DNA of 49,178 nt, taken from positions 1 through 49,178 of the forward strand of contig JAGBXB010000068.1 of the NCBI GenBank assembly GCA_017629515.1. Reading direction: 5' to 3'. Below, in pieces: positions 17,315-49,178 of this stretch. Under the pieces are notes generated by a model that was not told the origin of the DNA, ran no database searches, and saw nothing but the letters and a program-made list of their open reading frames with translations. Position 1 is the first letter of the stretch; every line of letters starts with the position of its first letter. Source of the stretch: Lentisphaeria bacterium. GTDB taxonomy: Bacteria; Verrucomicrobiota; Lentisphaeria; Victivallales; UBA1829. Made by a program: the position numbers and the translations under genes.

Positions 17315-18481
17315 ATGGAAAAATTCCGTCTTGCCATTATCGGAACAGGGGTGATGGGCAGTGGCCATATCCAGTTTGTCAGTGCATTGGAAAACTGCTG
17401 TATCACTGCTCTGTGTGATACCGATCCCGCCAAACTTGAAAAACACAAAAAACTTGAAAATTGTGCATTTTTCACTTCCGATGATGAATTTTTTGCCAAC
17501 AGCGATCTTTATGACGGAGTGCTTATCGCCACTCCCCATTATGACCATGTCCCCCTTGCCATCCGTGCAGTGGAACTGGGAAAACATATCATTGTGGAAA
17601 AACCTGTTGCCGTACAGAAATCCGAAGCGCAGAGATTGATTGATACGTTGAAAAAACATCCGGAAGTGAAAGCTGCCGCCATGTTCTGTTTGCGTCAGAT
17701 CGAAGCACATAAAAAGATCAAACACCTTATCGACTCCGGCGAACTTGGCGAACTGCGCCGGATCAACTGGATCATCACCAACTGGTTCCGCACCCAGTAC
17801 TACTATAACTCCGGTGCATGGCGGGCAAGCTGGAGAGGTGAGGGCGGCGGCGCACTGCTCAATCAGTGCCCCCATCAGCTTGACCTTATGCAGTGGTTTT
17901 TCGGGATGCCTTCCAAAATCACCGCCCACATGAGTTTCGGGAAATATCATGATATCGAAGTGGAGGATGATGTAACTGCATTCCTGGAATACCCCAATGG
18001 GGCAACAGGGGTGTTTGTCACTTCCACTGGTGAGTTCCCCGGTACAAACAGGTTGGAAATCACTGGTGAAAGAGGTAAATTGGTGTATGAAGACGGCAAA
18101 ATCAAATTCACCCGCAACGAGTTCAGTATGACGGAACACTCCCGTACAACAAGTGAAAAATTTGCCGGTCCCCCTGTATGGAATGTTGAAATCCCCGCCG
18201 CCTCCTCCAATAATCACATGCACAGGGATATTATTGAAAACCTTGTCAATGCCGTTCAGAAAGGCGATAAACTCATCGCCGGAGCGGAAGAAGGGATCAA
18301 TGGATTGGAATTGTCCAATGCCATGCTTCTTTCCCAGCTGGAAGGGCGTACCATTGAACTGCCTATTGATGCGGCCCTTTTCGATAAACATCTTCAGAAA
18401 CTTATTGATTCCTCCCGTTATCAGAAAACAATTGTGGCAGAAGGGGAAAAAGGGGATCTGGGATCTTCTTTCAGCAAGTAA
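17315..18481 (+). CDS. Gfo/Idh/MocA-family NAD(P)-dependent oxidoreductase
   Basis: These enzymes oxidise or reduce sugars, inositols and related polyols in the cytoplasm. The 388-residue protein has the Rossmann motif GTGVMG at 10-15, the EKP motif at 95-97 (IIVEKPVAV, catalytic Lys), and the conserved NQCPHQLDLMQW segment (H187, D190) in the C-terminal alpha/beta domain. There is no Tat signal, so it is a cytoplasmic form rather than the exported type common in this kind of organism. An AAGGAAAG site precedes the ATG. The next gene, a sugar isomerase/epimerase-like TIM barrel, starts 25 bases after the stop, and the pair ends at a terminator, so they form a two-gene operon for one substrate. 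The substrate is unknown. Confidence 0.9.
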   Translation: MEKFRLAIIGTGVMGSGHIQFVSALENCCITALCDTDPAKLEKHKKLENCAFFTSDDEFFANSDLYDGVLIATPHYDHVPLAIRAVELGKHIIVEKPVAVQKSEAQRLIDTLKKHPEVKAAAMFCLRQIEAHKKIKHLIDSGELGELRRINWIITNWFRTQYYYNSGAWRASWRGEGGGALLNQCPHQLDLMQWFFGMPSKITAHMSFGKYHDIEVEDDVTAFLEYPNGATGVFVTSTGEFPGTNRLEITGERGKLVYEDGKIKFTRNEFSMTEHSRTTSEKFAGPPVWNVEIPAASSNNHMHRDIIENLVNAVQKGDKLIAGAEEGINGLELSNAMLLSQLEGRTIELPIDAALFDKHLQKLIDSSRYQKTIVAEGEKGDLGSSFSK

Positions 18482-18506
18482 GAAACAATAATTCAGGAGA
18501 ATAAAA

Positions 18507-19430
18507 ATGTTTTATACAGGTTTTGCAGATGAAGCGGCAAACAGTCTGGAAAGACAGCTGGAAGCCACAAAAGCATTGGGTTGGAAACATATTGAAGTAA
18601 GAATGATCGACCGTATCTTTCTGGGCAAAATGACCGATGAACAGTTCGATAAAGTACTGGAAACAATGAGCAATACCGATATTACTTTCAACTGTTACGG
18701 CAGCGGTGTTGCCAACTGGAACTGCCCCCCTCTGGATGAGGAAGCCTATCAGGCAACCAAACAGGAATTGCTTATCTCCATTCCCCGTATGCAGAAACTG
18801 GGGATCAAACAGTTGCGGGGAATGAGTTTCAAAGTGGATCCCAAAGAGAGAGTGGACTCTCCTGAACAGGAAAGATTCATCTTTGACAAGGTGAATGAAC
18901 TTGTCTCCATCTGCAAGGATGCGGGGATCGTTTACGGACATGAAAACTGTATGAATTACGGCGGTCAGTCCTGGTTCCATGCCTGTAAATTGCTGGATAA
19001 TATCAAACATGATAACTTTATGTTCATTTTCGATACCGGTAATCCCACCTTTTTGCAGAGCCGTATGGGACTTCCCCCTTATGATGTGCAGAATGCCTGG
19101 GAATTTTATACCCATGTACGGGAAAAAATCGGCTATGTGCATATCAAAGATTCCATTACCAAACTCAATGAGGATGGCAGTGTGAAAGAACGGGAATTCA
19201 CCTATGCCGGGGATGGAAATGGTTTTATCCCGGAGATCCTTACCGACCTCTTCAAACGGGGGTATGACGGTGGATTCTCCATGGAACCCCACATCCAGAG
19301 TGTGTTCCACGAGGGGGATGATACCAATGATGAAGCCCTTAAAGAACAGAGAAAATTTGAGACTTACATTGAATACGGCAAACGCTTTGAGGCACTTGTT
19401 GCCAAATGCAAAGCCGCTGCTGCCAAATAA
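18507..19430 (+). CDS. Sugar phosphate isomerase/epimerase-like TIM-barrel protein
   Basis: A 307-residue member of the xylose isomerase-like/AP endonuclease 2 superfamily. The metal-site positions of the fold are visible as GHENCMNY (Glu), FDTGNP (Asp), YVHIKDS (His, Asp) and a C-terminal SMEPH (Glu, His). A good AGGAG site lies 8 bases upstream. It is co-transcribed with the Gfo/Idh dehydrogenase in front of it, an arrangement common in inositol or ketosugar catabolism, so it may isomerise, epimerise or dehydrate the keto product. No residue singles out a particular substrate. Confidence 0.85.
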   Translation: MFYTGFADEAANSLERQLEATKALGWKHIEVRMIDRIFLGKMTDEQFDKVLETMSNTDITFNCYGSGVANWNCPPLDEEAYQATKQELLISIPRMQKLGIKQLRGMSFKVDPKERVDSPEQERFIFDKVNELVSICKDAGIVYGHENCMNYGGQSWFHACKLLDNIKHDNFMFIFDTGNPTFLQSRMGLPPYDVQNAWEFYTHVREKIGYVHIKDSITKLNEDGSVKEREFTYAGDGNGFIPEILTDLFKRGYDGGFSMEPHIQSVFHEGDDTNDEALKEQRKFETYIEYGKRFEALVAKCKAAAAK

Positions 19431-19448
19431 TCTGTCTTTTTAAAAACC

Positions 19449-19492
19449 GCCGCTTTTGTTTCTTTGAATATAAAGAAGAAAAGCGGCTTTTT
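19449..19492 (+). terminator. Terminator of the Gfo/Idh-isomerase operon
   Basis: GCCGCTTTT (19449-19457) and AAAAGCGGC (19479-19487) form a perfect stem, followed by five Ts. Confidence 0.85.
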
Positions 19493-19579
19493 CCTGTCTC
19501 TTGAAAGCGGGAAAAAAGGGGAAAAAAGCTCCTTGAAGAAAAAAAATCAAAAAAAATCCTTTTTCGGGGATTTTTTATA

Positions 19580-19608
19580 TTGAAATTGTAAAAAAAGGCG
19601 TGTATTTT
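19580..19608 (+). promoter_or_regulatory. Sigma-70-type promoter for the diaminobutyrate genes
   Basis: TTGAAA (19580-19585), 17-bp spacer, TATTTT (19603-19608). An overlapping alternative is TTGTAA (19586-19591) with TATAGT (19608-19613) at 16 bp. Confidence 0.55.
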
Positions 19609-19774
19609 ATAGTCATGGTTTTTTGAAGATTTTTCTCTTTTTGCCGGATGAAAAGGAAAAGGGAAAAGTTTTCTTTTTGAGTTGTCTTTTGTAAAGACAG
19701 CCCTTGAACAATCTACTGTGAACAAAAAAACGGAAGAAGAAGTATATTCCGGAACAGAGAAGGGTTCTATTCTG

Positions 19775-21196
19775 ATGATGGAACTTAAAAATGACGTGCA
19801 GAATATGCAGAATGGGCAGGGATCAAGTGCCTGCAAATGTGGGAAAATGCCTGTAAGCAATGCTGAGTACATGGCAAGACAGGAGAATACGGAATCCAAT
19901 GCAAGAAGTTATCCGAGAAAGTTTCCCTTTTCTCTGGTAAAAGCAAAAGGATCCTGGGTGGAAGATGTGGAGGGGAACCGCTATCTGGATTTCCTCTGCG
20001 GTGCCGGTACACTGGCTCTGGGACATAATGATCCGGAAGTGAATCAGGCTATGGTGGAAATGCTCACCAGTGATGCCCCCCTGCATACCCTTGACCTGAT
20101 GACTCCTGTAAAGGATACATTCGTTCAAACTCTTATTTCTCTTCTTCCCCCCGGACTGAAAGAAAATGCCAAAGTGCAGTTTTGCAGTCCCTCCGGAACA
20201 GATGCCACCGATGCTGCGATCAAACTTTGCAAAACGGCAACAGGACGCCGGACGGTCATTGCTTTCCACGGCGGTTATCACGGAATGGGGCATGGCGCAC
20301 TGGCTCTGACCGGAAATCTTGGCGCAAAAGAGAAAGTCGCCTCCCTTATGCCGGATGTGCATTTCTTCCCCTATCCCTATTCCTATCGCTGTCCTTTCGG
20401 ACTGGGCGGGGAAATGGGGGTGAAAGCCTGCTGTGAATATTTTGAACGCACTCTGAAAGATCCTGAAAGCGGGATCGTCAAACCTGCTGCCGTGATCCTT
20501 GAACCCATTCAGGGTGAGGGCGGAGTTATTCCCGCACCTGTGGAGTTTTTGCAGACCGTAAGGAGAGTGACCGAAGAACTGGATATCCCCATGATCGTGG
20601 ATGAGATCCAGTGCGGTGTGGGAAGAAGCGGTAAATTCTTTGCTTTTGAATATGCTGATATCGTGCCTGATGTGATCCTTGTTTCCAAGGCTATCGGCGG
20701 GACACAGCCCATGTCAGTTGTTGTTTACAATAAGAAACTGGATAAATGGACACCCGGTGCCCATGCCGGTACATTCCGGGGCAATCAGCTTGCCATGAAA
20801 GCGGGTACTGTGGTTATGAACCGTGTCTCCAAACCGGAATTCCTGGCGGAAGTTGTGGAAAAAGGTGCGATGATCCGCGGCAGAGTCAATGCTTTGAAAG
20901 AAAAAGTATCCATTATCGGCGATGTCCGTGGCAAAGGATTGATGTTCGGCTGCGAATTCATTGATCCCCGCGGTGCGAAAGATTCCCTGGGTTCTTTCCC
21001 CGGAAGCGGAGAAATCGCAGCAAAAGTACAGCACATGTGTTTTGAAAATCATCTTGTCATGGAACGGGGCGGCAGAAACGGTGCAGTAATGCGTTGTCTC
21101 TGTGCTTTGAATGTGACAGAAGAAGATGTGAATATCATGCTGGATACCTTTGAAAAGGTTGTTTTGAGCGTGGATAAGGAAATCACAGGAAAATAA
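19775..21196 (+). CDS. dat: L-2,4-diaminobutyrate:2-oxoglutarate aminotransferase
   Basis: Class III PLP aminotransferase making L-2,4-diaminobutyrate from aspartate semialdehyde. It closely resembles the Acinetobacter/Vibrio Dat type: ESNARSYPRKFPFSLVKAKG, the LCGAGTLALGHNDPEV segment, LHTLDLMTP, FCSPSGTDATDAAIKL, GGYHGMGHGALALTGN, and VSKAIGG with the PLP lysine K305. The start at 19775 follows GAGAAGGG; a second ATG is at 19778. The N-terminal 40 residues (with CKCGKM) are extra relative to the core. The next gene encodes the matching decarboxylase, so the pair makes 1,3-diaminopropane, a precursor of norspermidine-type polyamines; siderophore use is a less likely alternative because no siderophore synthetase adjoins. 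Confidence 0.9.
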   Translation: MMELKNDVQNMQNGQGSSACKCGKMPVSNAEYMARQENTESNARSYPRKFPFSLVKAKGSWVEDVEGNRYLDFLCGAGTLALGHNDPEVNQAMVEMLTSDAPLHTLDLMTPVKDTFVQTLISLLPPGLKENAKVQFCSPSGTDATDAAIKLCKTATGRRTVIAFHGGYHGMGHGALALTGNLGAKEKVASLMPDVHFFPYPYSYRCPFGLGGEMGVKACCEYFERTLKDPESGIVKPAAVILEPIQGEGGVIPAPVEFLQTVRRVTEELDIPMIVDEIQCGVGRSGKFFAFEYADIVPDVILVSKAIGGTQPMSVVVYNKKLDKWTPGAHAGTFRGNQLAMKAGTVVMNRVSKPEFLAEVVEKGAMIRGRVNALKEKVSIIGDVRGKGLMFGCEFIDPRGAKDSLGSFPGSGEIAAKVQHMCFENHLVMERGGRNGAVMRCLCALNVTEEDVNIMLDTFEKVVLSVDKEITGK

Positions 21197-21213
21197 ATTT
21201 TCCGGAATATCAC

Positions 21214-21253
21214 AGACCCGTCAGACTCCTTTTGTCCGGCGGGTCTTGTTTTT
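21214..21253 (+). terminator. Terminator or attenuator between dat and ddc
   Basis: AGACCCG (21214-21220) and CGGGTCT (21240-21246) form a perfect 7-bp stem, extendable by two pairs, followed by TGTTTTT. It lies inside what looks like a two-gene operon. Confidence 0.65.
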
Positions 21254-21283
21254 CCCGGGAAACAGGCAGGAAAGCAGAAAAAT

Positions 21284-22744
21284 ATGGGTACTGAATTTGA
21301 ACATTTGGTTTTGACGGAAAAAGAAACCGACAAAAAAGAATATCAACGCATGATCCATCTGACGGTGGAAAAAATCCTTGCTTCTCTGGATTCCGGAGCA
21401 GCTTACAAGGGAATGACACCGGAAAAACTGCGGGAGAGAGTCCATCTGGAAGAGTTGCTTCCTGAAAAAGGTCTTGGCTTTGATTCGGTTCTGGAAGAGG
21501 CTTCTGAAAAGATCCTGCCTAACTTCCTCCGTCCTTTTTCCACCTCCTATATGGCACATCTGCACAGTTCCGCACTGTTGGAATCCATTGTTTCTGAACT
21601 TATCCTTTCCACATTCAATCAATCCATGGACAGTTGGGATCAAGCCCCTGTGGCGACCGAGATCGAAGTGGAGGTCATCCGGCATTTGTGCAAACTTTAC
21701 GGTTACGGAGAGGGCAGTGACGGCGTATTCACTTCCGGCGGTTCCCAGTCCAATCTTTCCGGACTTCTGCTTGCCCGGGACTGGTTCTGCAATACTGCTC
21801 TTTCCTGGGATGTAAAGAAGTATGGTTTGCCTGCTTCCTACCGTAAATTCCGGCTTTATGCGTCGGAAATATCTCATTTTTCCATGGAAAAAAGTACGCA
21901 TTTAATGGGGTTGGGGTATGATTGTGTAGTGAAAGTGCCGGTAAATGATGCCATGCAGATGGATGCGGATAAACTGGAAAAACTTATTGTGCAGGATCTG
22001 GAAGATGGAAATCTTCCCTTCTGCATAGCCGCAACGGTAGGGACGACGGACTTCGGCAGTATCGATCCTCTCGGCAAACTTTCGGAAATCGCCAAAAAAT
22101 ATTCTCTGTGGCTTCATGCGGATGCGGCATATGGCAGCGGCGTAGTTCTGTCTGAAAAGTATGCTCACAAGGTGAAAGACCTTTCGTTGTGTGATTCCAT
22201 TACTGTTGATTTCCATAAGATGTTTCTTCTTCCTATTTCCTGCAGTGCTTCTCTGGTAAAAGACGGGAAAAATTTTGAAACACTCACTCTCCATGCCGAT
22301 TACCTCAACCGGGAGGAAGATGAGGAAGATGGCTATATAAATCTTGTGGATAAATCCATGCAGACCACCCGGAGATTTGATGCTTTGAAAGTCTGGTTCT
22401 CTTTCCGTGCAAGGGGGAAAGAGGGGTGGTCGGCAATGATTACAAGATTTATGGAAAATGCCCGGTATCTTTATGAAAAACTTTCTGCAAATTCCGATTT
22501 TGAAGTGGCGGTGGAGCCGGAAATCAGTTCTGTGGTATTCCGTGTCCTTCCCGGTGCGGACAGGAAGGAGAGCGCAGATGATATGAATAAGAGGATCAGA
22601 CGCAAACTTCTTCATGAGCATGGTGTCGTTATCGGGCAGACTGTTTGCAAAGGGAATGTCTGTCTCAAATTTACTCTCCTCAATCCTCTCCTTACCCATG
22701 AAAAATTGGATGAATTACTTTCTCTTATCCTTTCTTTGAGATAA
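21284..22744 (+). CDS. ddc: L-2,4-diaminobutyrate decarboxylase (group II PLP)
   Basis: Decarboxylates L-2,4-diaminobutyrate to 1,3-diaminopropane. The 486-residue protein has the group II decarboxylase layout: MAHLHSSALLESIVSELILSTFNQSMDSWDQAP near residues 87-120, FTSGGSQSNLSGLLLARD (PLP phosphate contacts), HADAAYGSG (Asp pairing with the pyridine nitrogen), and the PLP lysine K312 in VDFHKMFLLPISC. The closest known architecture is the Acinetobacter/Vibrio Ddc and RhbB family rather than glutamate or aromatic decarboxylases. An AGGAAAG site precedes the ATG. The preceding gene makes its substrate, but a hairpin with a T-tract separates them, so its level may be reduced relative to the aminotransferase. 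Confidence 0.87.
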   Translation: MGTEFEHLVLTEKETDKKEYQRMIHLTVEKILASLDSGAAYKGMTPEKLRERVHLEELLPEKGLGFDSVLEEASEKILPNFLRPFSTSYMAHLHSSALLESIVSELILSTFNQSMDSWDQAPVATEIEVEVIRHLCKLYGYGEGSDGVFTSGGSQSNLSGLLLARDWFCNTALSWDVKKYGLPASYRKFRLYASEISHFSMEKSTHLMGLGYDCVVKVPVNDAMQMDADKLEKLIVQDLEDGNLPFCIAATVGTTDFGSIDPLGKLSEIAKKYSLWLHADAAYGSGVVLSEKYAHKVKDLSLCDSITVDFHKMFLLPISCSASLVKDGKNFETLTLHADYLNREEDEEDGYINLVDKSMQTTRRFDALKVWFSFRARGKEGWSAMITRFMENARYLYEKLSANSDFEVAVEPEISSVVFRVLPGADRKESADDMNKRIRRKLLHEHGVVIGQTVCKGNVCLKFTLLNPLLTHEKLDELLSLILSLR

Positions 22745-36118: not shown

Positions 36119-38266
36119 TTACAATTCAATCATTTTTCTGTATGCTTTTATTTCCAGAAGCATACTTTCCATCTGGCGGTTTTTCCATTCCAGATGCCAT
36201 TTGTCGCAAACATATTCCATACTCGGTTCCCAGCCGATACGGGAGTCTGCAATTACATGGGGGATGGTGGAGGCAGCATTTTCCATTTCGCCTGCGGCAA
36301 GTGCTTCCAGTTTGTCCAGAAGGGAAAGCATCTCCTCCTTGCAGGAGGAAGCCTGCAATTTTGTATTGAGAAGCCACCATTCTTTAATGTTGCTTGTGGT
36401 AATGATGGAGTGTTTGATAAAGGAGCCGAGAGCAAAAAGTCTTTCCATATTTTCTTTCTGGAAAGCCATACATTCCGCTTTTTTCATGGTTTCTTCCAGA
36501 ATGGCAAGCCCTTCTTCCCAGATGCGGAGCATTTCTTTCAGATCTTTAAGTTCCAACGGATAACGCAACGGCCCGGGGGACTGATTCTCATTTTCATAGG
36601 GCATATACAAGGTTTTTATGATCCTGTTGCCGAAGTGTGCCGTTTCTTCTGCCGGGAAGGGAATCTCTTTACTGCCCATGGTACGGGTGATGTTGGGCTG
36701 GAAAATAAAGGGATAGGAGGGTCCGGTACGCCAGGGGCCGTACTGATCTTCATTGGATGCCACATAATGATCCATGGCACTGCTCCATATTTCCCATACT
36801 TTTACAATATTTTCCGCGGCTTCCTTACCGAAATCCCTTCCGGCCAGTTTCAGAAGGAATCTATCAAGATCACTTTCGCCGGAAATATTGAAGATCTCTT
36901 TTTCCAGATCGTTCATCACATTGGGTGTCCAGCCGTAATGGTGGTTATCGTAGAAACTTTTCACGCCGCACTCTTTCAGATACTTTTTCAGAATAAGCAT
37001 CTTTTTGATCCATCTCTGGGGAACAGGTACAAAGGGTGCTGTTCCGAAGTCCCAGGTACAGCCGGCAAGGTTGGCGGTTGCCCGGATGGGAATACCCAGG
37101 GAGGAGGCGATTTCCGCTTCAGAAGTAAAATAATAGCCCGGTTCAACTGCGGAAATTGTGTAATCCATTACCGGACAGGCAAGGGGGCCTCTGCGGTTCT
37201 GTTTGAAAATTTCATAAGTGATCTGCAATGTGATCCCTTTGGGGAATCCTTCAAGGAATTTTTTTCTTATTTCATAAGGTGCCCAGCCCCAGTTATAGGT
37301 ACTGAAGATGACTTCAATATCTTTATTCACATTATGGACTGCATCACGGATCCGGGAGAGGTAAGCAGGGTAGTCATAACAGGGATACCAGCCGGGACTG
37401 GGACGGGTATCACGAATACCGTCCACCATGCTTTCACGCCATCTTTTGCCGGTGGTCGCAGGATCTTTACTGGGAAATTCCAGAGATTCCCCTACAAGGC
37501 TTATGGCTTTGGCTTTGGGATAACGTCTTGCCACTTCTCCGTAAATGGAATCGAAAAATGCCACAGCATCCGCATCATCCGGGTGTTTGAAAGAGCGTAT
37601 ATAGTTATACAGGACTACACCGATACCATATTTATCCGCATCGTCGATAAGGGATGCCACATCACAATGCCCCCAGGAAACTGTGTCGATCCCTTTCAGA
37701 AAGAGGTCAACCGCATTGAATCCTGCGTGGAGAATGGCATTGAACTGCCAGTCGGGAAATTTATCCACACCGGCACCGGAATGTATGCTTCTCATTCTTG
37801 TAAGATCTTCCCGCAGACATTTTTTCATGGGGAGGATGGGGGCATTCAGCAGATTCATACAGTCTTCCATGTAGACCATGGCATAAAGAAGACTGTTGTC
37901 ACCGTTACCGCAGAGAAGAACCTTGTTTTTTGTGATTTCCACGGTAAAAGAACCCGCTTTTTCCGGAAGAAAAGATAATTCTCCTTTATATTCCTCTTTT
38001 TTGAGAAAACAGATACACTTTTCCCCGTTTGCCTCATCATTGAGTTTGATGATTGGGAGAGACAAACCCATACTTACAAAAAGATAATCCTGAAAATCCA
38101 GAACCGCGCGCATTGCCTTTTCAGAGGGCGTACTGCTTACTGCGATCTTCCAGGAATCATCAATAACAATATCATTTTCGCTTCCGGTAACAGAGTGATC
38201 CCGTCTGTCCGGTATATGGATTTGCCGCATTCTTTTCAGAAAGTCATAATTTTTTTCCTTAAGCAT
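36119..38266 (-). CDS. Putative glycoside hydrolase with GH67_N-like domain, uncharacterised
   Basis: A 715-residue protein with no signal peptide. ATG at 38266 follows AAAGGAG; the frame extends eight codons upstream but without a site. Residues about 40-150 resemble the N-terminal beta/alpha domain of alpha-glucuronidases and GH20-type proteins (SEKAMRAVLDFQDYL, then CGNGDNSLLYAMVYMEDCMN). Residues about 160-480 look like a TIM barrel (FNAILHAGFNAVDLFLKGI, GIGVVLYNYIRSF, AKAISLVGESLEF, IEVIFSTYNWGWAPYEI), and the rest is helical. It is the last gene of the xseB-XRE-rlmI run, 36 bases after rlmI, and ends in a terminator. Neither substrate nor catalytic residues are identifiable. Confidence 0.6.
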   Translation of the reverse strand: MLKEKNYDFLKRMRQIHIPDRRDHSVTGSENDIVIDDSWKIAVSSTPSEKAMRAVLDFQDYLFVSMGLSLPIIKLNDEANGEKCICFLKKEEYKGELSFLPEKAGSFTVEITKNKVLLCGNGDNSLLYAMVYMEDCMNLLNAPILPMKKCLREDLTRMRSIHSGAGVDKFPDWQFNAILHAGFNAVDLFLKGIDTVSWGHCDVASLIDDADKYGIGVVLYNYIRSFKHPDDADAVAFFDSIYGEVARRYPKAKAISLVGESLEFPSKDPATTGKRWRESMVDGIRDTRPSPGWYPCYDYPAYLSRIRDAVHNVNKDIEVIFSTYNWGWAPYEIRKKFLEGFPKGITLQITYEIFKQNRRGPLACPVMDYTISAVEPGYYFTSEAEIASSLGIPIRATANLAGCTWDFGTAPFVPVPQRWIKKMLILKKYLKECGVKSFYDNHHYGWTPNVMNDLEKEIFNISGESDLDRFLLKLAGRDFGKEAAENIVKVWEIWSSAMDHYVASNEDQYGPWRTGPSYPFIFQPNITRTMGSKEIPFPAEETAHFGNRIIKTLYMPYENENQSPGPLRYPLELKDLKEMLRIWEEGLAILEETMKKAECMAFQKENMERLFALGSFIKHSIITTSNIKEWWLLNTKLQASSCKEEMLSLLDKLEALAAGEMENAASTIPHVIADSRIGWEPSMEYVCDKWHLEWKNRQMESMLLEIKAYRKMIEL

Positions 38267-38302
38267 AATAACTCCTTTTTTTATATACATATTGCTTTAC
38301 TC

Positions 38303-40539: not shown

Positions 40540-40638
40540 TCTTTTTTTTGCCGGATATCGGGGTAATTTCAAAAGCACTCTTATAACAGTAAAATTCTCC
40601 TCTTTTGCGGTGGTTTTCCGGGGATGAAAAATTTCTGT

Positions 40639-40667
40639 TTGAAAAGATGTATCATAGAGAGTATATT
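40639..40667 (+). promoter_or_regulatory. Sigma-70-type promoter for the GHL6-like gene
   Basis: TTGAAA (40639-40644), 17-bp spacer, TATATT (40662-40667). The -10 lies inside the palindrome at 40651-40674. Confidence 0.65.
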
Positions 40668-40674
40668 CTATGAT
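40651..40674. promoter_or_regulatory. Palindrome overlapping the -10 (putative operator)
   Basis: ATCATAGA (40651-40658) and TCTATGAT (40667-40674) form a perfect inverted repeat around an 8-base centre. It covers the -10 of the promoter for the downstream gene, the classic position of a repressor operator. Candidate regulators are the XRE-cupin protein at 39513-40085 or the AraC proteins. Confidence 0.6.
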
Positions 40675-40704
40675 GGATTTGTAAAAAATATATGGAAAGG
40701 GCAA

Positions 40705-42705
40705 ATGATGAAGAATAATATATCTCAACGGATGGCAAGCTGGTGGCTCCGCAGGGAAATACTGGATTATCCGGATAAAAAAATAAGCGATGAGATCCGG
40801 AAACGGGCAGATGTGCTTGCAGAGGGCGGTTGCGACAGTGCTATTATGTTCGGCGCCCATTTCCGTTGGGATTATATGCCTGTATGGGAAAGATTGCATG
40901 ATTACATTGCGGAAGTGGTGGAAGTATTGCATGAAAGAAATATGGTTTTCTGGGATCACCATTCCTGCGTACTTACTGCAAGACCTTCCCACGGAAAAAA
41001 TGAGAGTTCAAGTCTGGCCAAAAGAGATCATGTTTTCCTTAAAGAGATAAATGAATTTGCGGAAAACTGGGAATTTATGGGGGAAAAACTCAATTCCTGG
41101 CGGATGAAAGATCTTTTTACCGGTCAGGCAGTTTTTCTTCCCCAGTACGCAGCAGATGAATTTTGTATCAATAATCCCTCTTTCCGTTCTGCCTACCGGA
41201 AATATCTGCAGAAACTTCTTGCCGAAACTTCCATTGATGCTTTGATGTGTGATGATGCCTTTTTCTATCCCGGATTCCGAGCCTGTATCTGCCCCCACTG
41301 CCTGGAAAAATTCGGGCAGGAAGTGCCTCCGCATACGGACTTGACTTTCTGGGGAAATTGGAATAATGAAGATTTCCGCAAATGGATCGCTTTCCGGTAT
41401 GCTTCCGTAGGGGATTTTAATCAATTTGTGCAGGCGTCCCTGCCGGAAAACTTCCCCCTTATGAACTGCTGTTCCGGAAGTGTTTCCGCCGGATGCAATA
41501 CCAACGCCCTTTCCGGTGAGGAATTTTTGAAAGGCGGCAACCGTATCATGCTGGAAATGTGCGGCAATACCCCTGCGGTTGACGGTACATACTGGAACAA
41601 TCTTTCTTCCCAGCTGCATCATCTTGCTCTGGCAAAAGAAAAAAATGCTTCCTGTATCGGACTTGGTTACGGTTTTTATCCGGATACGGCTCAATTTATC
41701 TGGGCTTTCAATAAATTCCTGGGTTCTGGAACATGGATCTCCACATTGAAACACCGTCTGGGGTTGCCTGATGAGATCATCTATAAAGAATTGCCGGATG
41801 AAGGGGAGATCATCAAAAAAGCGTTCAACTTTGAAAAAAATCATCCGGAATATTTTTCCGGTACACATAAAACGGATACAGCCGTATATTTTTCACGCTC
41901 CACGCATGATTTTGCCGGAGGTTGTCAGGTGGATTATGTGCTGGATTATATGAAAACAGTGCAGAACCTTTTTGAAGAAAATAAAGATTTTGATGTGGTC
42001 ACCTCCATTCCGGATGAAATGTCTTCCATCAGGGTTCTTTATCTGCCATCGGCTGCGTGTTTATCTCAAAATGAGAGAAAAGCACTGGATGGATTTTTAC
42101 AGCGGGGGAACAGGATCTACGCAAGCGGCCCCTGCGGAATATATGATGAAAACGGCAATAAAAGCAATGAAAACTGGATCGCCGAAACTTTGCTTCTTCC
42201 CTTTGAACGGGAAAAATTTTTCCCGGAAGGCTCTTTTATCTTTACGGAAAGAAATACCATTTTTTGCGGAAATGAAAAAGGGCTGCGTGAAGTACGGAAA
42301 AATCTTTTCTGGAATCCGGAACGGCAGTTTTCCGCAGAAGAAAGCAGGGAAAAACACTCTCTTCTACCCCGCTTTTTCCATAGAACATTCCTTTTGGAAA
42401 ACGGGAAAAAAGTCACTCATTTCCTATCTTCCAGTCTGAAATGTACCATTGATGAAGCCAACGAAAAGAAAAGAACTCTTCCTTTGGGTAATACTTTGAT
42501 CAATTCTCTTCTTCTTGCCTGTCAGGAAAAGGAAGAAGTGCTGCCGGAAAGTCTGGAAATACCTATTGAAACGAGGTATGATACAGTAAAACTCATCTTC
42601 CCCCTTGCCGGGGAAAATGGTATCATTACGGAAGAAAAAATAAAAGAGGGGAAAATCGTTGTTCCCCTCTCTCCTGAAAAATGGTACTTTATTATTGCTG
42701 AATAA
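40705..42705 (+). CDS. GHL6-like putative glycoside hydrolase with beta-galactosidase trimerisation-like domain
   Basis: A 666-residue cytoplasmic-looking protein. Two ATGs (40705 and 40708) follow GGAAAGG. The N-terminal region (about 1-400) resembles the GHL6 hypothetical glycosyl hydrolase TIM barrel: DSAIMFGAHFRWDYMP, VFWDHHSCV, and SIDALMCDDAFF with adjacent Asp183-Asp184 as possible catalytic residues, then a CPHC zinc-type pair (C196, C199). Residues about 420-520 form a Rossmann-like domain typical of GH42 trimerisation (VDYVLDYMKTVQNLFEENKDFDVVTSIPDEMSSIRVLYLPSAACLSQNERKALDGFLQRGNRIYASGPCG). A C-terminal beta domain follows. Probably acts on a fucose- or galactose-type glycoside. It converges with the amidohydrolase gene, 3 bases between stops. 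Confidence 0.68.
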   Translation: MMKNNISQRMASWWLRREILDYPDKKISDEIRKRADVLAEGGCDSAIMFGAHFRWDYMPVWERLHDYIAEVVEVLHERNMVFWDHHSCVLTARPSHGKNESSSLAKRDHVFLKEINEFAENWEFMGEKLNSWRMKDLFTGQAVFLPQYAADEFCINNPSFRSAYRKYLQKLLAETSIDALMCDDAFFYPGFRACICPHCLEKFGQEVPPHTDLTFWGNWNNEDFRKWIAFRYASVGDFNQFVQASLPENFPLMNCCSGSVSAGCNTNALSGEEFLKGGNRIMLEMCGNTPAVDGTYWNNLSSQLHHLALAKEKNASCIGLGYGFYPDTAQFIWAFNKFLGSGTWISTLKHRLGLPDEIIYKELPDEGEIIKKAFNFEKNHPEYFSGTHKTDTAVYFSRSTHDFAGGCQVDYVLDYMKTVQNLFEENKDFDVVTSIPDEMSSIRVLYLPSAACLSQNERKALDGFLQRGNRIYASGPCGIYDENGNKSNENWIAETLLLPFEREKFFPEGSFIFTERNTIFCGNEKGLREVRKNLFWNPERQFSAEESREKHSLLPRFFHRTFLLENGKKVTHFLSSSLKCTIDEANEKKRTLPLGNTLINSLLLACQEKEEVLPESLEIPIETRYDTVKLIFPLAGENGIITEEKIKEGKIVVPLSPEKWYFIIAE

Positions 42706-42708
42706 GGA

Positions 42709-43479
42709 TCAGGCAGTAAGACGCTCAAAATTCCTGAAAAAGATATTTTCCAGTTCAGAATCGGTAAGGGGTTCACTTAAAACCCCTCCCAGATTCATGC
42801 CCGGCGAACAGATGGGGAAGTCACTGCCGAAAAGGATCTTTTCGCTTCCGCAGATATTTACCGCATAACGCAGCATTCCCCAGCGGAAAAGACCTGTGCC
42901 GGAAATATCAATATGGGCATTGGGATATTTTGCAATCAGTTCAAAGCGTTTTTTTGCATTTCCCACATCTTCCGGATGGGCGACAACAAGGGGGAGGGTG
43001 GGAAAGTTTTTCAGGACATCTTCAATAACTGTCAGATCGGAACAATGGATATTTACCGGCATGGAAAGATCCCGCGCTGTTTCATAGATCTGCATCATTT
43101 TGGGTGAGTTGTAAATGCCTGTTTTCAAGGCATAATCCACAAGTTCCCCGATCCAGCGGACATGATGAAGGTGGTACATATCCTCCAATTCCTTACAGGA
43201 GCCTTCCACATCTGCTTCATGTATATGGATCCCCGGAACATATTCCGGGTGTCTTTCCCGTAACGCGAGGGCTGTACGGTTGAGTCCTTTGATCTCTTCA
43301 AAAGTGGCAGGTCCCTTCCGTAAAACAGAACCGCAAACTTTGGAAAAACCGCATTTTTTCAATTCGGCAAAAAATTCCTCTTCACTTTTTGTTACTCCGA
43401 ATGCGGCAATATTTATACTTTCATTCAGATCATCCGTAAAGGGGTGGATGTGAGAATCGATCATTTTTCCCTGATACAT
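42709..43479 (-). CDS. Amidohydrolase-family (Amidohydro_2) metal-dependent hydrolase
   Basis: A 256-residue TIM-barrel hydrolase. The metal site reads MIDSHIHPF (His-x-His), then VNIHC, VVAHP and FGSDFP (terminal Asp), the order of the Amidohydro_2 family that includes sugar lactonases and decarboxylases. ATG at 43479 follows AGAGGAAG; ATG five residues later is an alternative. It is the last gene of the right-edge operon, 13 bases after the alpha/beta hydrolase gene. A second amidohydrolase of the same family is encoded four genes upstream; the two probably act on successive or related intermediates. Confidence 0.85.
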   Translation of the reverse strand: MYQGKMIDSHIHPFTDDLNESINIAAFGVTKSEEEFFAELKKCGFSKVCGSVLRKGPATFEEIKGLNRTALALRERHPEYVPGIHIHEADVEGSCKELEDMYHLHHVRWIGELVDYALKTGIYNSPKMMQIYETARDLSMPVNIHCSDLTVIEDVLKNFPTLPLVVAHPEDVGNAKKRFELIAKYPNAHIDISGTGLFRWGMLRYAVNICGSEKILFGSDFPICSPGMNLGGVLSEPLTDSELENIFFRNFERLTA

Positions 43480-43492
43480 TTTTTTCTTCCTC

Positions 43493-44380
43493 TTACGCTT
43501 TTTCCCATGAGAAAAGTTCTTTATCCGCCAGATTTTTCGACCAGTCGATGGTAAGACGCTTACCGGCACAGGGGATGGATATCATACTTCCTGCAAGAAA
43601 ATCATCTTTCTTTTCATTGACGGAAGTTTTCAATACTTCCGGAATCATTTTTTTATACGCATCCAATTTATTTATTGTCGGCATAAGGTCATGTCCGCCG
43701 CCTTCATAATAAACAGCTTTTACTTCTTTATGCAGGTCTTTCAATGCTTTTTCCAGTTGGACTGCATGAAGGAAGTGCGGCACACTTCCATCATTCGTCC
43801 CCGCTTCCAGATAGACCGGACACTGGATCAAACATGCGTGTTCCACCACATTGCGTACACTTTTCTCCGCTTCCGAAAAATCCCGTTCTGCAAAGTTGTA
43901 AAGGGTTTCCCCTTCCTCCGGTATATGGGTCAGCGGACAGGAGGCATAGACAAATGCAAAGGTGGACGGAGCAAAAATACTGCTTAAAAGAACGATATGC
44001 CCGCCCTGACTGCCACCGTAGGCAAAAATCCTTTTTCTATTGAGAAATGGATAGATCTCCAGAACTTTCCGCAAAGAATTGATACAATCAAAGGTTTGCA
44101 GAAAACTTAAATCGTAAGGCTGATTCCATCCGCCGCCTTTCACCGGATCAAAGGCATAGCCGCTCATACGGTATTCCGGCGCAACACATACAAGATCAAA
44201 TTCATCACAAGAGTATTTCATCTTGTCAAAGTGCTGGCTTCTGTTACAGCCCCATCCGTGACAGAACATCATAAGGCCCGTATTTTCCGTAAATACATCC
44301 GGAATATACACGGTTGCTGTGATATTCTGCCCCTGACCGTATCTGTTGACAGAAAGAAAATTTATATCCATTTCTTTCAT
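43493..44380 (-). CDS. Alpha/beta hydrolase, prolyl oligopeptidase/acyl esterase-like
   Basis: A 295-residue alpha/beta hydrolase with nucleophile motif GGSQGGH (S124), Asp197 in GTNDGS, and His230 in GGGHDL, a complete catalytic triad. The FCHGWGCNRSQH segment supplies the oxyanion region. The family includes peptidases and carbohydrate esterases such as acetyl esterases; context favours removal of an ester group from a sugar. There is no signal peptide. A GAGGG site lies 6 bases before the ATG, 9 bases after the DegT stop. Confidence 0.87.
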   Translation of the reverse strand: MKEMDINFLSVNRYGQGQNITATVYIPDVFTENTGLMMFCHGWGCNRSQHFDKMKYSCDEFDLVCVAPEYRMSGYAFDPVKGGGWNQPYDLSFLQTFDCINSLRKVLEIYPFLNRKRIFAYGGSQGGHIVLLSSIFAPSTFAFVYASCPLTHIPEEGETLYNFAERDFSEAEKSVRNVVEHACLIQCPVYLEAGTNDGSVPHFLHAVQLEKALKDLHKEVKAVYYEGGGHDLMPTINKLDAYKKMIPEVLKTSVNEKKDDFLAGSMISIPCAGKRLTIDWSKNLADKELFSWEKA

Positions 44381-44389
44381 GGAAAGCCC

Positions 44390-45721
44390 TCAATTTTTTC
44401 TGCGGGTGAATGCCACCTGCCCGATAAGGGGAGTTGTATCATTGATTGCCAGAAGATCTTTATGATGTTCGGCTACTTTGTGGAATGCTTCAATAAATTT
44501 ATCCAGAATAGGGGTATCGCAATGTTTGAACCAGATGTCATTGATAACTTTATCATTGATCGTTGCGGTTACAGGAAGTTCCCCTGTAAGTTTGGCAAGA
44601 TCCACATCCGGCGGCAGGAATCTGGTTGCCGTTGCTCTTCCCTCGCCGAAAATATCAAAGGATGTGAAAAGAGAGGATTTATTCAGGGGGAGGGCGGCTC
44701 CGGGGATCACATAGGTATCGCACTCCTGGGCGACCGCATCGGAGAAAGTCTTGTTGGAAACTCCGGAAAAGGCTTCTGCATCATACATAAAGTGACTGGC
44801 GTACCACCCTGCTTTATCGCTGCCCGCTTCGGAGGGGTAGACCATCCGCAAACCGGGAATATCCTTTACCCCGTTCCAGAAATATTTCATGGCTTTGTCG
44901 ATTTCCGCTATTTCCGCTTCATATTTGGTCAACTGGACCAGCCCCACTGCCGCAGACATCTGGTGCATACGGTTTTTCACGCCGCCCACCGGGAGATTGA
45001 ATGTATCGGCAAACTCCTCTTTTTTGTAGCAGGCGGGGATTCTGTCATAATGTCCGAACCGGACGGCTTTGCGGAAGATCTCCTCATCATCGGTAAGAAG
45101 CATACCACCTTCACCGATGGCAAAGGATTTGCCGGACATGAGGGACATGGCGGCAACATCGCCGATAGTACCCAGCATTTTTCCTTTATAGTGTCCGCCC
45201 TGTGCGTGGGAAACATCTTCTATAACTTTGAGATTATGTTTCTTTGCTATGGGCATGATTTTATCCATGTCGCTGGGATAGGATTTATAATGGACTACCA
45301 CAATGGCTTTTGTACGGGGGGTGATACGTGCTTCGAGACTTGCCGGATCCATCTGCAAAGTAATGGGATCCACATCACAGAAAACCACACTTCCGCCGAG
45401 ATGAATGACGCCCAGACAACTTGCCCAGTAGGTGAGGGCGGGGGCAATGACTTCATCCCCCGGGCCGATGCCCATGCCATAGAATCCGGCAATAAGGGCA
45501 TTGGTTCCGGTATTGTGGGCAAGGGCATATTTTCTGTTGTGCCATTTTGCAAATTCATCTTCAAATTTCCGGGAAATATCGCTTCCGGACATATTGCCGT
45601 CTTCCAGAACTTGAAGAACATCTTTTCTCATCTGATCATTGACGATGGGCCAATGAATGAGTTTATCCGGACATTTGTCGATAACGGGGGTACCGCCGAG
45701 AATAGCTAATTTACTGCTCAT
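44390..45721 (-). CDS. DegT/DnrJ/EryC1/StrS-family PLP aminotransferase
   Basis: A 443-residue fold-type I enzyme. The PLP lysine is K198 in MSGKSFAIGEGGM. Other family hallmarks are HNTGTNALIAGFYGMGIGPGDEVIAPALTYWAS, VIEDVSHAQGGHYKGKMLGTIGDVAAMS (Asp pairing with the pyridine) and the C-terminal arginine-rich ATATRFLPP. Members normally convert a keto-sugar to an amino-sugar (or act in reverse or as dehydratases). Here it lies between catabolic hydrolases and not in a polysaccharide-synthesis cluster, which argues that it acts on an unusual amino sugar intermediate. An AAGGCAG site precedes the start. 16 bases separate it from the upstream amidohydrolase. Confidence 0.88.
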   Translation of the reverse strand: MSSKLAILGGTPVIDKCPDKLIHWPIVNDQMRKDVLQVLEDGNMSGSDISRKFEDEFAKWHNRKYALAHNTGTNALIAGFYGMGIGPGDEVIAPALTYWASCLGVIHLGGSVVFCDVDPITLQMDPASLEARITPRTKAIVVVHYKSYPSDMDKIMPIAKKHNLKVIEDVSHAQGGHYKGKMLGTIGDVAAMSLMSGKSFAIGEGGMLLTDDEEIFRKAVRFGHYDRIPACYKKEEFADTFNLPVGGVKNRMHQMSAAVGLVQLTKYEAEIAEIDKAMKYFWNGVKDIPGLRMVYPSEAGSDKAGWYASHFMYDAEAFSGVSNKTFSDAVAQECDTYVIPGAALPLNKSSLFTSFDIFGEGRATATRFLPPDVDLAKLTGELPVTATINDKVINDIWFKHCDTPILDKFIEAFHKVAEHHKDLLAINDTTPLIGQVAFTRRKN

Positions 45722-45737
45722 TTTTTACTGCCTTATT

Positions 45738-46619
45738 TTAATTTTCCGGGACAAGGTGGAGTGCATTTTCTGCATAGAGTTTTTTCAGGATCTCTTCCGG
45801 AAGATCCAGAGAGTTCAAAAGTTCCTGATGGGAATTGTCAAAGCAATCTCTGGCATAAAGGAATCTGTCCTGAAATTCTGTAAGAAGTTCTTTTGTGAAT
45901 TTTTTATCTCTGGAAAGAGCCATTCTTCCGGAACCTGCGGAAATATCGCAATACAAATTGGGATACTTTCTCAAAAGCCGGACAACTTCCCCGCCGGGAA
46001 CGATTTTATCCTTTTCAATATTGGGATAGGAATTGGTTTTCCAGAGTTCATCATTGGATATATGGATCCAGAATCCCGGAGCGTGACCGAGAAAAATGGT
46101 ATCGGGACACTCCTGCAATACTCTTTCCAGAGTATGGATCGAGCCTCCGTACCACTCTGTCCACGGGTCTTTATATGTTGTCTGCCTGTCATAATCAAAG
46201 TGCATGACTACCGGCATACCAAGTTCCCCGGCCGTATGGAAAAGCCGTATGCAGTCCGGGGAATCATACATGGTACGGATCTTTACTTCCCCGCAGATCT
46301 TTGCACCGTAGATCTTATTTGCCGCAATGAGCATTCTGCAAGCCTCTCTGTCACGGGGATCGGGAGAGTACCCCAGAATAAATCTTTCCGGAGCACGTTC
46401 TTTATAGGAAAGACATCTGGTGAAGGGGACGGGGCCGTCACTCATGCCGAGTACTGCTCCGCCCATGACTTCATTATAGATCACATTGTGTTCGTTACGG
46501 GGGCAGATGTGGGAAAGAAGCCAGCAGCGTTCAATATTATTTTTATCCATATTTTCCAGCATACGGGTAAAATCATGCCCCAGCCAGTCCGGGTGATTGT
46601 GTGCATCAATGATCCTCAT
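45738..46619 (-). CDS. Amidohydrolase-family (Amidohydro_2) protein
   Basis: A 293-residue metal-dependent hydrolase: IIDAHNHPD (His-x-His pair), VVMHFDYD, FLGHAPG and the C-terminal YARDCFD in the terminal Asp position. It has the same family layout as the product of 42709-43479. Its ATG overlaps the stop of the GH95-like gene (TAATG at 46617-46621), so the two are translationally coupled, and AAAGGATC supplies the ribosome site. Members are lactonases, decarboxylases or hydrolases of small carboxylic compounds, so a lactonase on an oxidised sugar is one reasonable guess. Confidence 0.83.
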   Translation of the reverse strand: MRIIDAHNHPDWLGHDFTRMLENMDKNNIERCWLLSHICPRNEHNVIYNEVMGGAVLGMSDGPVPFTRCLSYKERAPERFILGYSPDPRDREACRMLIAANKIYGAKICGEVKIRTMYDSPDCIRLFHTAGELGMPVVMHFDYDRQTTYKDPWTEWYGGSIHTLERVLQECPDTIFLGHAPGFWIHISNDELWKTNSYPNIEKDKIVPGGEVVRLLRKYPNLYCDISAGSGRMALSRDKKFTKELLTEFQDRFLYARDCFDNSHQELLNSLDLPEEILKKLYAENALHLVPEN

Positions 46620-49006
46620 TACAAGATCCTTTCAAGATTTTCTGTTATTTCAAGAGTTTCCCCGGCTTTCATGGAAAACTCCATATTGTTCAAATTTGCA
46701 AGAATGAATTTTCCGCCGTTGCGGGAATGGATTTTTGCATAAACGATCCTGCCGTCAACGATTTTTGAGGATACCTCAAAGCCGCCATTGGCAAGAAAAT
46801 TGGAAAATTCCCCTGTGAAATCCTGCGGTACAGCCGGGAAAAGCTGCAGAACTCCAAATTGACTTTGCAGAAGAAGTTCGGAAGCAAGGAATACAAGAGC
46901 AGAATTGCCTTCAATGACCGCCGGAGCAAGTCTTTTGGCATCCGGGTTTTCCGTTACGCAGGAAACATGGGAGATGTTGGGATCATTCTTATCCAGTCTG
47001 CCGCCGTCAGGATTGATCTGATTGCGGTACATCCTCTCTTCATTGCGTTTTTCATTTTCTTCACTTTCCTTTACCGGCCCGATAAGAATGGGATCGTGGG
47101 AAAAGAGTCCGTTTTCCTTTGCAAAAAGTTCCAGGAATCTGTGAACCCCTTTCCATCCTTTTTCCCGGTTGCCGGAACGCAGATTGGCGGCTGTGGTAAT
47201 GAAAACACTCCAATCATGGTTCATGTGGAAATTGTCATCAAAGTCGGCAAAGGTGCGTTCCACCGCTTCCTCCTCAATAAATTTCAAAGTCTTTTTCGCC
47301 GCATCAATATCATTTTCAATAGCGGCGGGGAAGAAGGGATAAAGGGTATGGCCTCCGTAGAAGAAATGATTCAGCGGCAGATCTGTTCCGCCCCAGTATG
47401 CTCCGTCAGGGCGTCTGGGCATATCCGGATAGTTTGCCAGTATTTCTTCCCATTGCAAGAGATATTTTTTATCTCTTTTAAGGAGTTTGGCTGCTTCGAT
47501 GGTGGTTTCAAGACACAGTTTGAACAAGGCAACAGTGGAAAGTTCATCTCTTGTCAAAGTAAAAATTTCCGGAGGAACGCTCCAATCCAGATGGTATTTT
47601 CCATCTTGCCCCTTGTGCATGATGTGGGTGTAAAAAAAGACAAACTCACGCAGGAGAGGATAAAGTTTTTCTTTGAGAAGCGTCACATCCTGTGAGTATT
47701 TCCACGCATAACAAAGCACCATTCCTGTATAGGCACTGCCGCAGAGGGAATAACGGTAAGACTTTGTGGGCGTTTCTTTTCCCAGCTGATTGGTGGAAAG
47801 AGGTATATAAATACCGTTGCAACCAAAGGTTTTCCGGGTATTTTTTTTCAAAAGTTTTGCTGCCGCAAGATAAGTATCGGCAAAGGCGTGAATAAGTTCC
47901 ACATGATTTGCCGGAATACTTCCCAATGCGGAGATCTGAACATTCTGGTCATGGGCATACCCCTGACAACCCACTCCCGGTACTCTTTCCGTAAGAGGGC
48001 CATACGCCATCCCGTTCAAACCGGGCATGGGGGCTTTGCCGAAAACACAGGCAAGTTCATACAAACTGAATGTATAATATTTCTGTAATTCTTTATATTT
48101 TCCGAAGTCCGCATATCCTCCATTGTTCCAGTAGGAGTGCCACCATTTTTTGTGTCCTTCTTCCAGAAGTTCAAAGGAGGCAGCATGGGCTTCTTCCAGT
48201 TCTTTTATTGCTTCTTCATAAGATTTTTCAGCATTTTTACTGGTTTTTACCGTAATATACAGATCGGTATTGCCGGTTTGTTCCAGTACGCCGCAACGGT
48301 CGTTTGCAGAAGAATAAGTAAATTTCTGTGCTTCACGGGGGCAGAAAAGCGCGGCGACAGTATAATAAGTTTTATTGTCCGGCAGAACTTGGGTAAAGGC
48401 AAGCATATTTTCCTTTTCCGTATGCCAGACGGGGGCTTTCAAACGGTCATCAGAGGGACGGACGATTTCCAGGATATGAGGGAGAACGCCATTAGCCGAT
48501 GTGCCGGAAAGGTGCATGGCAATAACTTCCTTACCTCTGGGAATAAACATTCTCACTCTCAAATGCAGATTGTGGGAATCCATCTCTTCTTCAAGGATGG
48601 CATTATAAAGATCGAGTTTTCTTTTTGTCACCGGTACGGGCGGCGCACTCCAACCGATTCCATACCAGGAACTCAACCGCACAACGGCACAACTTAAAGT
48701 ATCTCTGTGCCGTTTGCGCTTAAGAGGGGCATTTTCCAGTTCATTGAGGAAGTAGGTGTTTTTGGGATTCATATTTTCAATGCGGCGGAGAAATTCCTCA
48801 TGGGGAATGATCTTTTTGAGCAGATCCTCTTCCTGTGTGGGGTCGAAAACATCCACTTTATTGATGACATACTCCAAATGCCCCGGAGCGTAGGCAACCG
48901 CTGCAAGATCGCCGTTTCCCAGAAGCAGACCATCTCTCCAATCTCTGCCGCCTTTGACTTCTGTCCAGACCTGTTCTTTTATCAGTGTCCTGATACTGCT
49001 TTCCAT
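46619..49006 (-). CDS. GH95-like glycoside hydrolase ((alpha/alpha)6 barrel)
   Basis: A 795-residue protein whose shape matches the alpha-L-fucosidase family GH95 and relatives: an N-terminal beta-sandwich beginning WRDGLLLGNGDLAAVAYAPGHLEYVINKVDVFDP, a long helical barrel in the middle (GYAHDQNVQISALGSIPANHVELIHAFADTY, YLDW-type segment HLDWSVPPE), and a C-terminal region ending NSALVFLASELLLQSQFGVLQLFPAVP typical of the family. There is no signal peptide, so it would act on imported oligosaccharide. A GAGGAAG site precedes the ATG. It follows a partial gene whose stop is 27 bases upstream. Linkage specificity (fucose, galactose) is unproven. Confidence 0.75.
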   Translation of the reverse strand: MESSIRTLIKEQVWTEVKGGRDWRDGLLLGNGDLAAVAYAPGHLEYVINKVDVFDPTQEEDLLKKIIPHEEFLRRIENMNPKNTYFLNELENAPLKRKRHRDTLSCAVVRLSSWYGIGWSAPPVPVTKRKLDLYNAILEEEMDSHNLHLRVRMFIPRGKEVIAMHLSGTSANGVLPHILEIVRPSDDRLKAPVWHTEKENMLAFTQVLPDNKTYYTVAALFCPREAQKFTYSSANDRCGVLEQTGNTDLYITVKTSKNAEKSYEEAIKELEEAHAASFELLEEGHKKWWHSYWNNGGYADFGKYKELQKYYTFSLYELACVFGKAPMPGLNGMAYGPLTERVPGVGCQGYAHDQNVQISALGSIPANHVELIHAFADTYLAAAKLLKKNTRKTFGCNGIYIPLSTNQLGKETPTKSYRYSLCGSAYTGMVLCYAWKYSQDVTLLKEKLYPLLREFVFFYTHIMHKGQDGKYHLDWSVPPEIFTLTRDELSTVALFKLCLETTIEAAKLLKRDKKYLLQWEEILANYPDMPRRPDGAYWGGTDLPLNHFFYGGHTLYPFFPAAIENDIDAAKKTLKFIEEEAVERTFADFDDNFHMNHDWSVFITTAANLRSGNREKGWKGVHRFLELFAKENGLFSHDPILIGPVKESEENEKRNEERMYRNQINPDGGRLDKNDPNISHVSCVTENPDAKRLAPAVIEGNSALVFLASELLLQSQFGVLQLFPAVPQDFTGEFSNFLANGGFEVSSKIVDGRIVYAKIHSRNGGKFILANLNNMEFSMKAGETLEITENLERIL

Positions 49007-49033
49007 GACACACTTCCTCTCTGAACTTGCTTT

Positions 49034-49178
49034 TTATTTTGTAATGAGCTTTGCGGAAAAGTCCATATATTCCACACTTCCGCCGGCTTGCAGACCGAAA
49101 ACGATCCTGATTTCTTTGATTTTATCAGAACCGATCACAAATTTCTGGCTTATTTCGCTCCAGTCTTCGCCAACTTTA
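49034..49178 (-). CDS. 3' end of a protein with a possible carbohydrate-binding-module-like C-terminus
   Basis: Only the last 47 codons are in the window, with the stop at 49034-49036. They read as beta-strand-rich sequence (DWSEISQKFVIGSDKIKEIRIVFGLQAGGSVEYMDFSAKLI), reminiscent of the last strands of a CBM4/9-type jelly roll. The gene lies directly upstream of the GH95-like gene on the same strand and is probably the preceding gene of the same operon. The start and the rest of the protein are outside the window. Confidence 0.6.
   Translation of the reverse strand, partial: KVGEDWSEISQKFVIGSDKIKEIRIVFGLQAGGSVEYMDFSAKLITK

Follow-up and report, generated by a model that had tools for sequence, protein, structure and literature searches.

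A genus-level operon joining a DegT-family enzyme to metallohydrolases, an esterase and a GH95-like glycosidase in an uncultured gut bacterium of the Lentisphaeria

A five-gene operon encoding a GH95-like glycosidase, a metallohydrolase (AH1), a DegT-family PLP enzyme, an alpha/beta-hydrolase esterase and a second metallohydrolase (AH2) is confirmed in the genome of an uncultured herbivore-gut bacterium of the class Lentisphaeria. The operon is a composite specific to its genus. Its core is an old partnership of the DegT enzyme and AH1, often accompanied by the esterase, to which the GH95-like enzyme has been joined in this genus only, and AH2 likewise. Tentatively, and with slightly less than even confidence, the operon is read as a cytoplasmic route that breaks down a sugar derivative with an amine group and probably an O-acyl group, either an amino sugar or an aminocyclitol.

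Sequences and scope

The window, meaning the whole stretch of 49,178 nucleotides that was analysed, is one entire contig (C33) of an assembly of 2.9 Mb that is 82% complete. The genomes of its relatives are mostly fragmented MAGs, and their genes were called with a simple codon-usage caller made for this analysis. Two other species of the genus served for comparison, with locus L006 (genome G088, water buffalo rumen) and locus L005 (genome G087, sheep colon). A search of the open literature for DegT and amidohydrolase pairing, Lentisphaerae aminotransferases and sugar-aminotransferase catabolism returned nothing relevant.

Layout of the operon

The five genes lie head to tail on the minus strand in the order GH95-like, AH1, DegT, esterase and AH2 (5' to 3'), and the gaps between them are -1 (a TAATG overlap of the GH95-like gene and AH1), 16, 9 and 13 bases (Table 1). 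An earlier note on this DNA had described five complete genes and a partial one, running in one direction with gaps of 27 bases or less and one TAATG, and all of these are present. The partial gene is more precisely the end of a small secreted-protein gene. Its stop at 49034 falls 27 bases short of the GH95-like start, and the visible C-terminus of its product aligns closely with that of a 172-aa signal-peptide protein of L006, which is encoded immediately before the GH95-like gene there. The lack of an internal terminator also holds: the hairpin downstream of AH2 is the sole strong terminator-like match on the minus strand, and the intragenic matches are weak and at about the level of shuffled sequence. 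The five operon proteins have no apparent signal peptide, as the note had stated: their N-terminal hydropathy is at most 1.42, whereas the secreted protein encoded upstream in L006 reaches 2.55. Genes for Gfo/Idh/MocA proteins, transporters and kinases are absent from the operon in the window.

Table 1. Features of the operon and its borders in the window
Feature	Position	Strand	Basis
3' end of small secreted-protein gene	49034..49178	-	47 aa visible, contig end
GH95-like glycosidase, (alpha/alpha)6-barrel, 795 aa	46619..49006	-	Pfam, PDB profile match, invariant residues
AH1, Amidohydro_2 TIM-barrel metallohydrolase, 293 aa	45738..46619	-	Pfam, metal residues, model
DegT-family PLP enzyme, 443 aa	44390..45721	-	Pfam, PLP residues, PDB match
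Alpha/beta-hydrolase esterase, 295 aa	43493..44380	-	Pfam Peptidase_S9, triad, recurrence in L146 and L193
AH2, Amidohydro_2/TatD-like metallohydrolase, 256 aa	42709..43479	-	Pfam, invariant metal residues
Terminator-like hairpin after AH2	42642..42673	-	12-bp stem, T-rich tail; consensus match only

Three other parts of the window are recorded here. A 693-aa protein without a Pfam match (40624-42705, plus strand) converges on the operon, with the two stops 3 bases apart. Its gene is missing at the corresponding position in L006, and the protein is distant kin (25%, E 1.6e-30) of proteins near homologues of the GH95-like gene in L057 and L058. At 36119-38290 (minus strand), a 723-aa protein without a Pfam or NCBIfam match has 82% identity to the syntenic L006 gene product. 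The region 17315-22744 (plus strand) contains a Gfo/Idh/MocA oxidoreductase and an XI-TIM protein adjoining a class-III aminotransferase and a PLP decarboxylase.

Conservation in the genus and the AH1-DegT linkage

L006 has all five genes in the same order, at 72-88% identity, and the flanking genes are kept too. The G087 genome has one contig with AH1 (partial), DegT, esterase and AH2 (partial) and a second with the GH95-like gene and AH1 (partial), and the order is thus kept as far as the broken contigs extend. Because the full order recurs in L006 and part of it in G087, the operon is not a product of chance, and the search for the same gene order in related genomes, which had been suggested earlier, finds it there. 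Outside the genus, the five genes are separate. The idea of a single pathway stands for AH1, DegT and the esterase; the GH95-like gene and AH2 are linked to these in the genus only.

The AH1-DegT linkage extends far beyond the genus and lies far above chance, even when counted by genus. Among about 38 AH1 loci (relatives at >=56% identity), 13 have a gene of this DegT subfamily no more than 10 kb away, where about 0.3 would be expected. These loci span about six genera, with a binomial P of ~1e-18 by loci and ~3e-8 by genera; the counts were read manually from match tables, and the genomes, being related, are not independent samples. At five further AH1 loci, a second DegT paralogue (cl5) is adjacent, and the same pairing of cl5 and AH1 recurs in f43, another family of the phylum. 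Roughly half of all AH1 loci, some of them on short contigs, have no DegT nearby. Other Lentisphaeria carry more distant pairs of an amidohydrolase and a DegT enzyme, as do rumen Clostridia, which have Gfo/Idh/MocA and XI-TIM genes beside the pair, and the Clostridial cluster L021 also has an ABC sugar importer. Following that cluster, and ahead of the importer, a gene at L021:13837-15105 (plus strand) resembles a LarA-type lactate racemase by eye.

In the AH1 tree and in the DegT tree alike, the copies of the window and L006 are sister to those of L007 with strong support. Since the two trees agree independently, the pair was duplicated together, within the genus. The L007 sister copy lies in a fuller module that comprises cl5, Gfo/Idh/MocA, XI-TIM and a GntR regulator.

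The enzymes

AH1 matches Pfam Amidohydro_2 (9.5e-9), and its residues H7, H9, E111, H140, H179 and D258 are invariant in 24 homologues. The nearest PDB folds to its predicted structure (pLDDT 79.8) are Amidohydro_2 decarboxylases and hydrolases (Foldseek E 1e-10 to 1e-7). It shares the TIM-barrel fold of ACMSD, gamma-resorcylate decarboxylase and 2-pyrone-4,6-dicarboxylate hydrolase, but has only ~15% identity to them and carries the invariant E111 beside the HxH/H/H/D set. Such a glutamate is as expected for a two-metal hydrolase, which AH1 may be. AH2 matches both Amidohydro_2 (2.3e-17) and TatD (4.7e-7), and H10, H12, E112, H145, H168 and D220 are invariant. The TIM barrel and the HxH, H, H, D metal set of the Amidohydro_2 superfamily are found, and the assignment of both enzymes to Amidohydro_2 is retained, with the addition that AH2 is TatD-like as well. 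The AH2 family has three copies in its own genome and is present in 75 of 198 genomes of the class; its members lie in unrelated surroundings. AH2 probably represents a general paralogue that has been recruited, and its role as a pathway-specific enzyme is doubtful. Against the L-fucono-1,5-lactonase model NF052480 of NCBIfam, AH1 gives no match and AH2 scores 13.1 bits, the cut-off being 400, and a fuconolactonase assignment was dropped for both.

The DegT protein matches Pfam DegT_DnrJ_EryC1 (9.3e-70, 236 bits), and the residues expected of a PLP-dependent aminotransferase, D169 and K198, are invariant across the subfamily. Its best PDB match is 8gyh (E 7.9e-53), and it shares its fold family, the PLP lysine (K198) and D169 with 8gyh, perosamine synthetase 3bn1 and 2-deoxy-scyllo-inosose aminotransferase 2c7t. 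Among the DegT/DnrJ/EryC1/StrS aminotransferases, it differs in forming a distinct 443-aa subfamily that is linked to amidohydrolases. All NCBIfam equivalog cut-offs, those of known surface-sugar enzymes (PseC, ArnB, LegC type, WecE, RfbH) included, are missed by far, the best score being 161.4 bits against a cut-off of 423.5. Membership of the named cell-surface equivalogs was accordingly rejected. The best-characterised relatives are biosynthetic, which counts against a catabolic direction.

The esterase matches Pfam Peptidase_S9 (1.1e-9), and the complete triad reported for it, S124/D197/H230, is intact and invariant in 14 homologues. Its family is present in 18 of 198 genomes of the class, and in two other genera the gene is accompanied by DegT, an M55 peptidase and amidohydrolases (L146 in G096 and L193 in G131). 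M55 D-aminopeptidase genes are repeatedly seen within DegT/amidohydrolase clusters (L146, L142, L143, L144 and L193).

The GH95-like protein contains the same two Pfam domains as GH95 alpha-L-fucosidases (PDB 8zbv, 7zo0, 2eab and 2rdy), namely Glyco_hydro_95_cat (5.4e-15, 55.7 bits, cut-off 27) and Glyco_hydro_95_C (3.2e-8, 34.4 bits, cut-off 27.6), and the HDQN and SVPPE motifs of the catalytic region align. A family profile searched against the PDB finds GH95 alpha-fucosidases with a best E of 3.5e-22. In contrast to these enzymes, the window protein is remote, is covered only partly by Pfam over the catalytic domain, lacks a signal peptide and has N546 in place of an aspartate. As the structure model, made from two sequences, reaches a pLDDT of only 34, the active site was placed by profile alignment, in which D353, N355 and E480 are invariant in 13 homologues. 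The catalytic residues of AfcA are E566, N421/N423 and D766. At the position of the putative catalytic base, which aligns with D766, the window protein has Asn (N546), as does that of L006, and most homologues have Asp. Outside the genus, homologues (41-55% identity) adjoin GHL6-type glycosidases, GDSL/SGNH esterases or other genes, and none was found with AH1 and DegT in the neighbourhood comparison. A place for this enzyme in the old core was rejected on these grounds.

Proposed pathway and alternatives

The 120 neighbours of amidohydrolase and DegT genes, in a descriptive tally without a matched background set, include 18 Gfo/Idh/MocA, 12 GntR (11 Peripla_BP_3 matches), 3 XI-TIM, 2 PIG-L and 2 M55 proteins, and the 25 commonest neighbour families contain no glycosyltransferase or nucleotide-sugar family. 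L008 has PIG-L and SASA genes on the flanks of its DegT gene. L222, L223 and L225 have NagA-like and/or NagB-like genes in the vicinity of distant relatives of AH1 (37-40% identity), and L154 has a NagA-like gene close to AH1, though the NagA/NagB-like proteins score under the NCBI cut-offs. Together, these neighbours and the lack of a common glycosyltransferase point to the breakdown of a sugar or cyclitol that bears both an amine and an acyl group. The cytoplasmic, degradative setting proposed by the earlier note agrees with the Gfo/Idh/MocA, sugar-sensing GntR, XI-TIM and esterase neighbours. Its suggestion of an aminated and acylated sugar fits the esterase and the PIG-L, SASA and NagA/NagB-like genes of related loci. 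Overall, that first reading survives in part, as one unit of the genus in a degradative setting that may act on such a sugar, and is unsupported by these tests for fucose and fuconolactone.

From this, we infer a catabolic direction and an amine-bearing substrate, and the following order of steps is a guess. The GH95-like enzyme would free a terminal sugar from an imported oligosaccharide, and the esterase would take off an acyl ester. DegT would then move the amine onto a 2-oxo acid and so turn the sugar into a keto sugar. AH1 might hydrolyse an amide or a lactone bond, the choice being likewise guessed, and the redox step could come from a Gfo/Idh/MocA dehydrogenase whose gene lies at another place in the genome. 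NagA/NagB-like genes near distant AH1 relatives recall the NagA/NagB route, but the operon of the window lacks both, and the amine would leave by transamination instead of NagB-type deamination.

Gfo/Idh and DegT pairs occur in amino-sugar biosynthesis (NtdC/NtdA), and rhizopine (moc) type systems combine Gfo/Idh and XI-TIM. The DegT, Gfo/Idh/MocA, XI-TIM and regulator genes of L007 and L021 resemble these systems in gene content, and the additional metallohydrolases and esterase set them apart. With this precedent, and with biosynthetic aminotransferases as the best PDB relatives of DegT, the operon could instead make an amino sugar or aminocyclitol, as a small metabolite or surface sugar, in which DegT installs an amine on a ketone produced by a Gfo/Idh/MocA enzyme. 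This is unlikely, however, given the glycosidase and esterase in the operon, the sugar importer and GntR/AraC regulators of relatives, the NagA/NagB-like neighbours and the neighbour families described above. Loose co-transcription, by which unrelated hydrolases share one promoter and no pathway, agrees with the differing neighbours of the GH95-like gene and AH2 in other genera; it is quite unlikely in view of the co-duplicated and linked AH1-DegT pair and the return of the esterase with DegT and an amidohydrolase in two other genera. An oxidative route for degrading a neutral or deoxy sugar, in which the GH95-like enzyme frees L-fucose or L-galactose, a dehydrogenase forms the lactone, AH1 and AH2 are lactonases and DegT is incidental, can draw on the GH95 homology, on 2-pyrone-4,6-dicarboxylate lactonase-like proteins among the amidohydrolase fold neighbours and on GHL6 proteins that adjoin GH95-like genes elsewhere and match alpha-L-fucosidase weakly, but is improbable, as neither metallohydrolase reaches the fuconolactonase cut-off, the GH95-like enzyme is remote from characterised fucosidases, the operon has no sugar dehydrogenase, dehydratase or aldolase, and AH1 is tied across genera to DegT and not to the GH95-like gene.

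Significance

The breakdown of an amine-bearing sugar derivative may extend beyond this operon. A bolder and rather doubtful proposal is that the amidohydrolase and DegT genes, with the esterase, Gfo/Idh/MocA, M55 peptidase, XI-TIM and GntR genes, form an undescribed catabolic pathway of Lentisphaeria, their relatives and rumen Clostridia, in which transamination, in place of NagB-type deamination, takes the amine off an amino sugar or aminocyclitol that carries an acyl group. The history of the operon is that of a conserved enzyme pair which was duplicated and coupled to a new glycosidase. If the catabolic reading of the operon is right, DegT, AH1 and the esterase would be a defined enzyme set for joint assay, and the Lentisphaeria of herbivore guts, about whose metabolism little is known, would possess a widespread and unannotated route for amine-bearing sugars.
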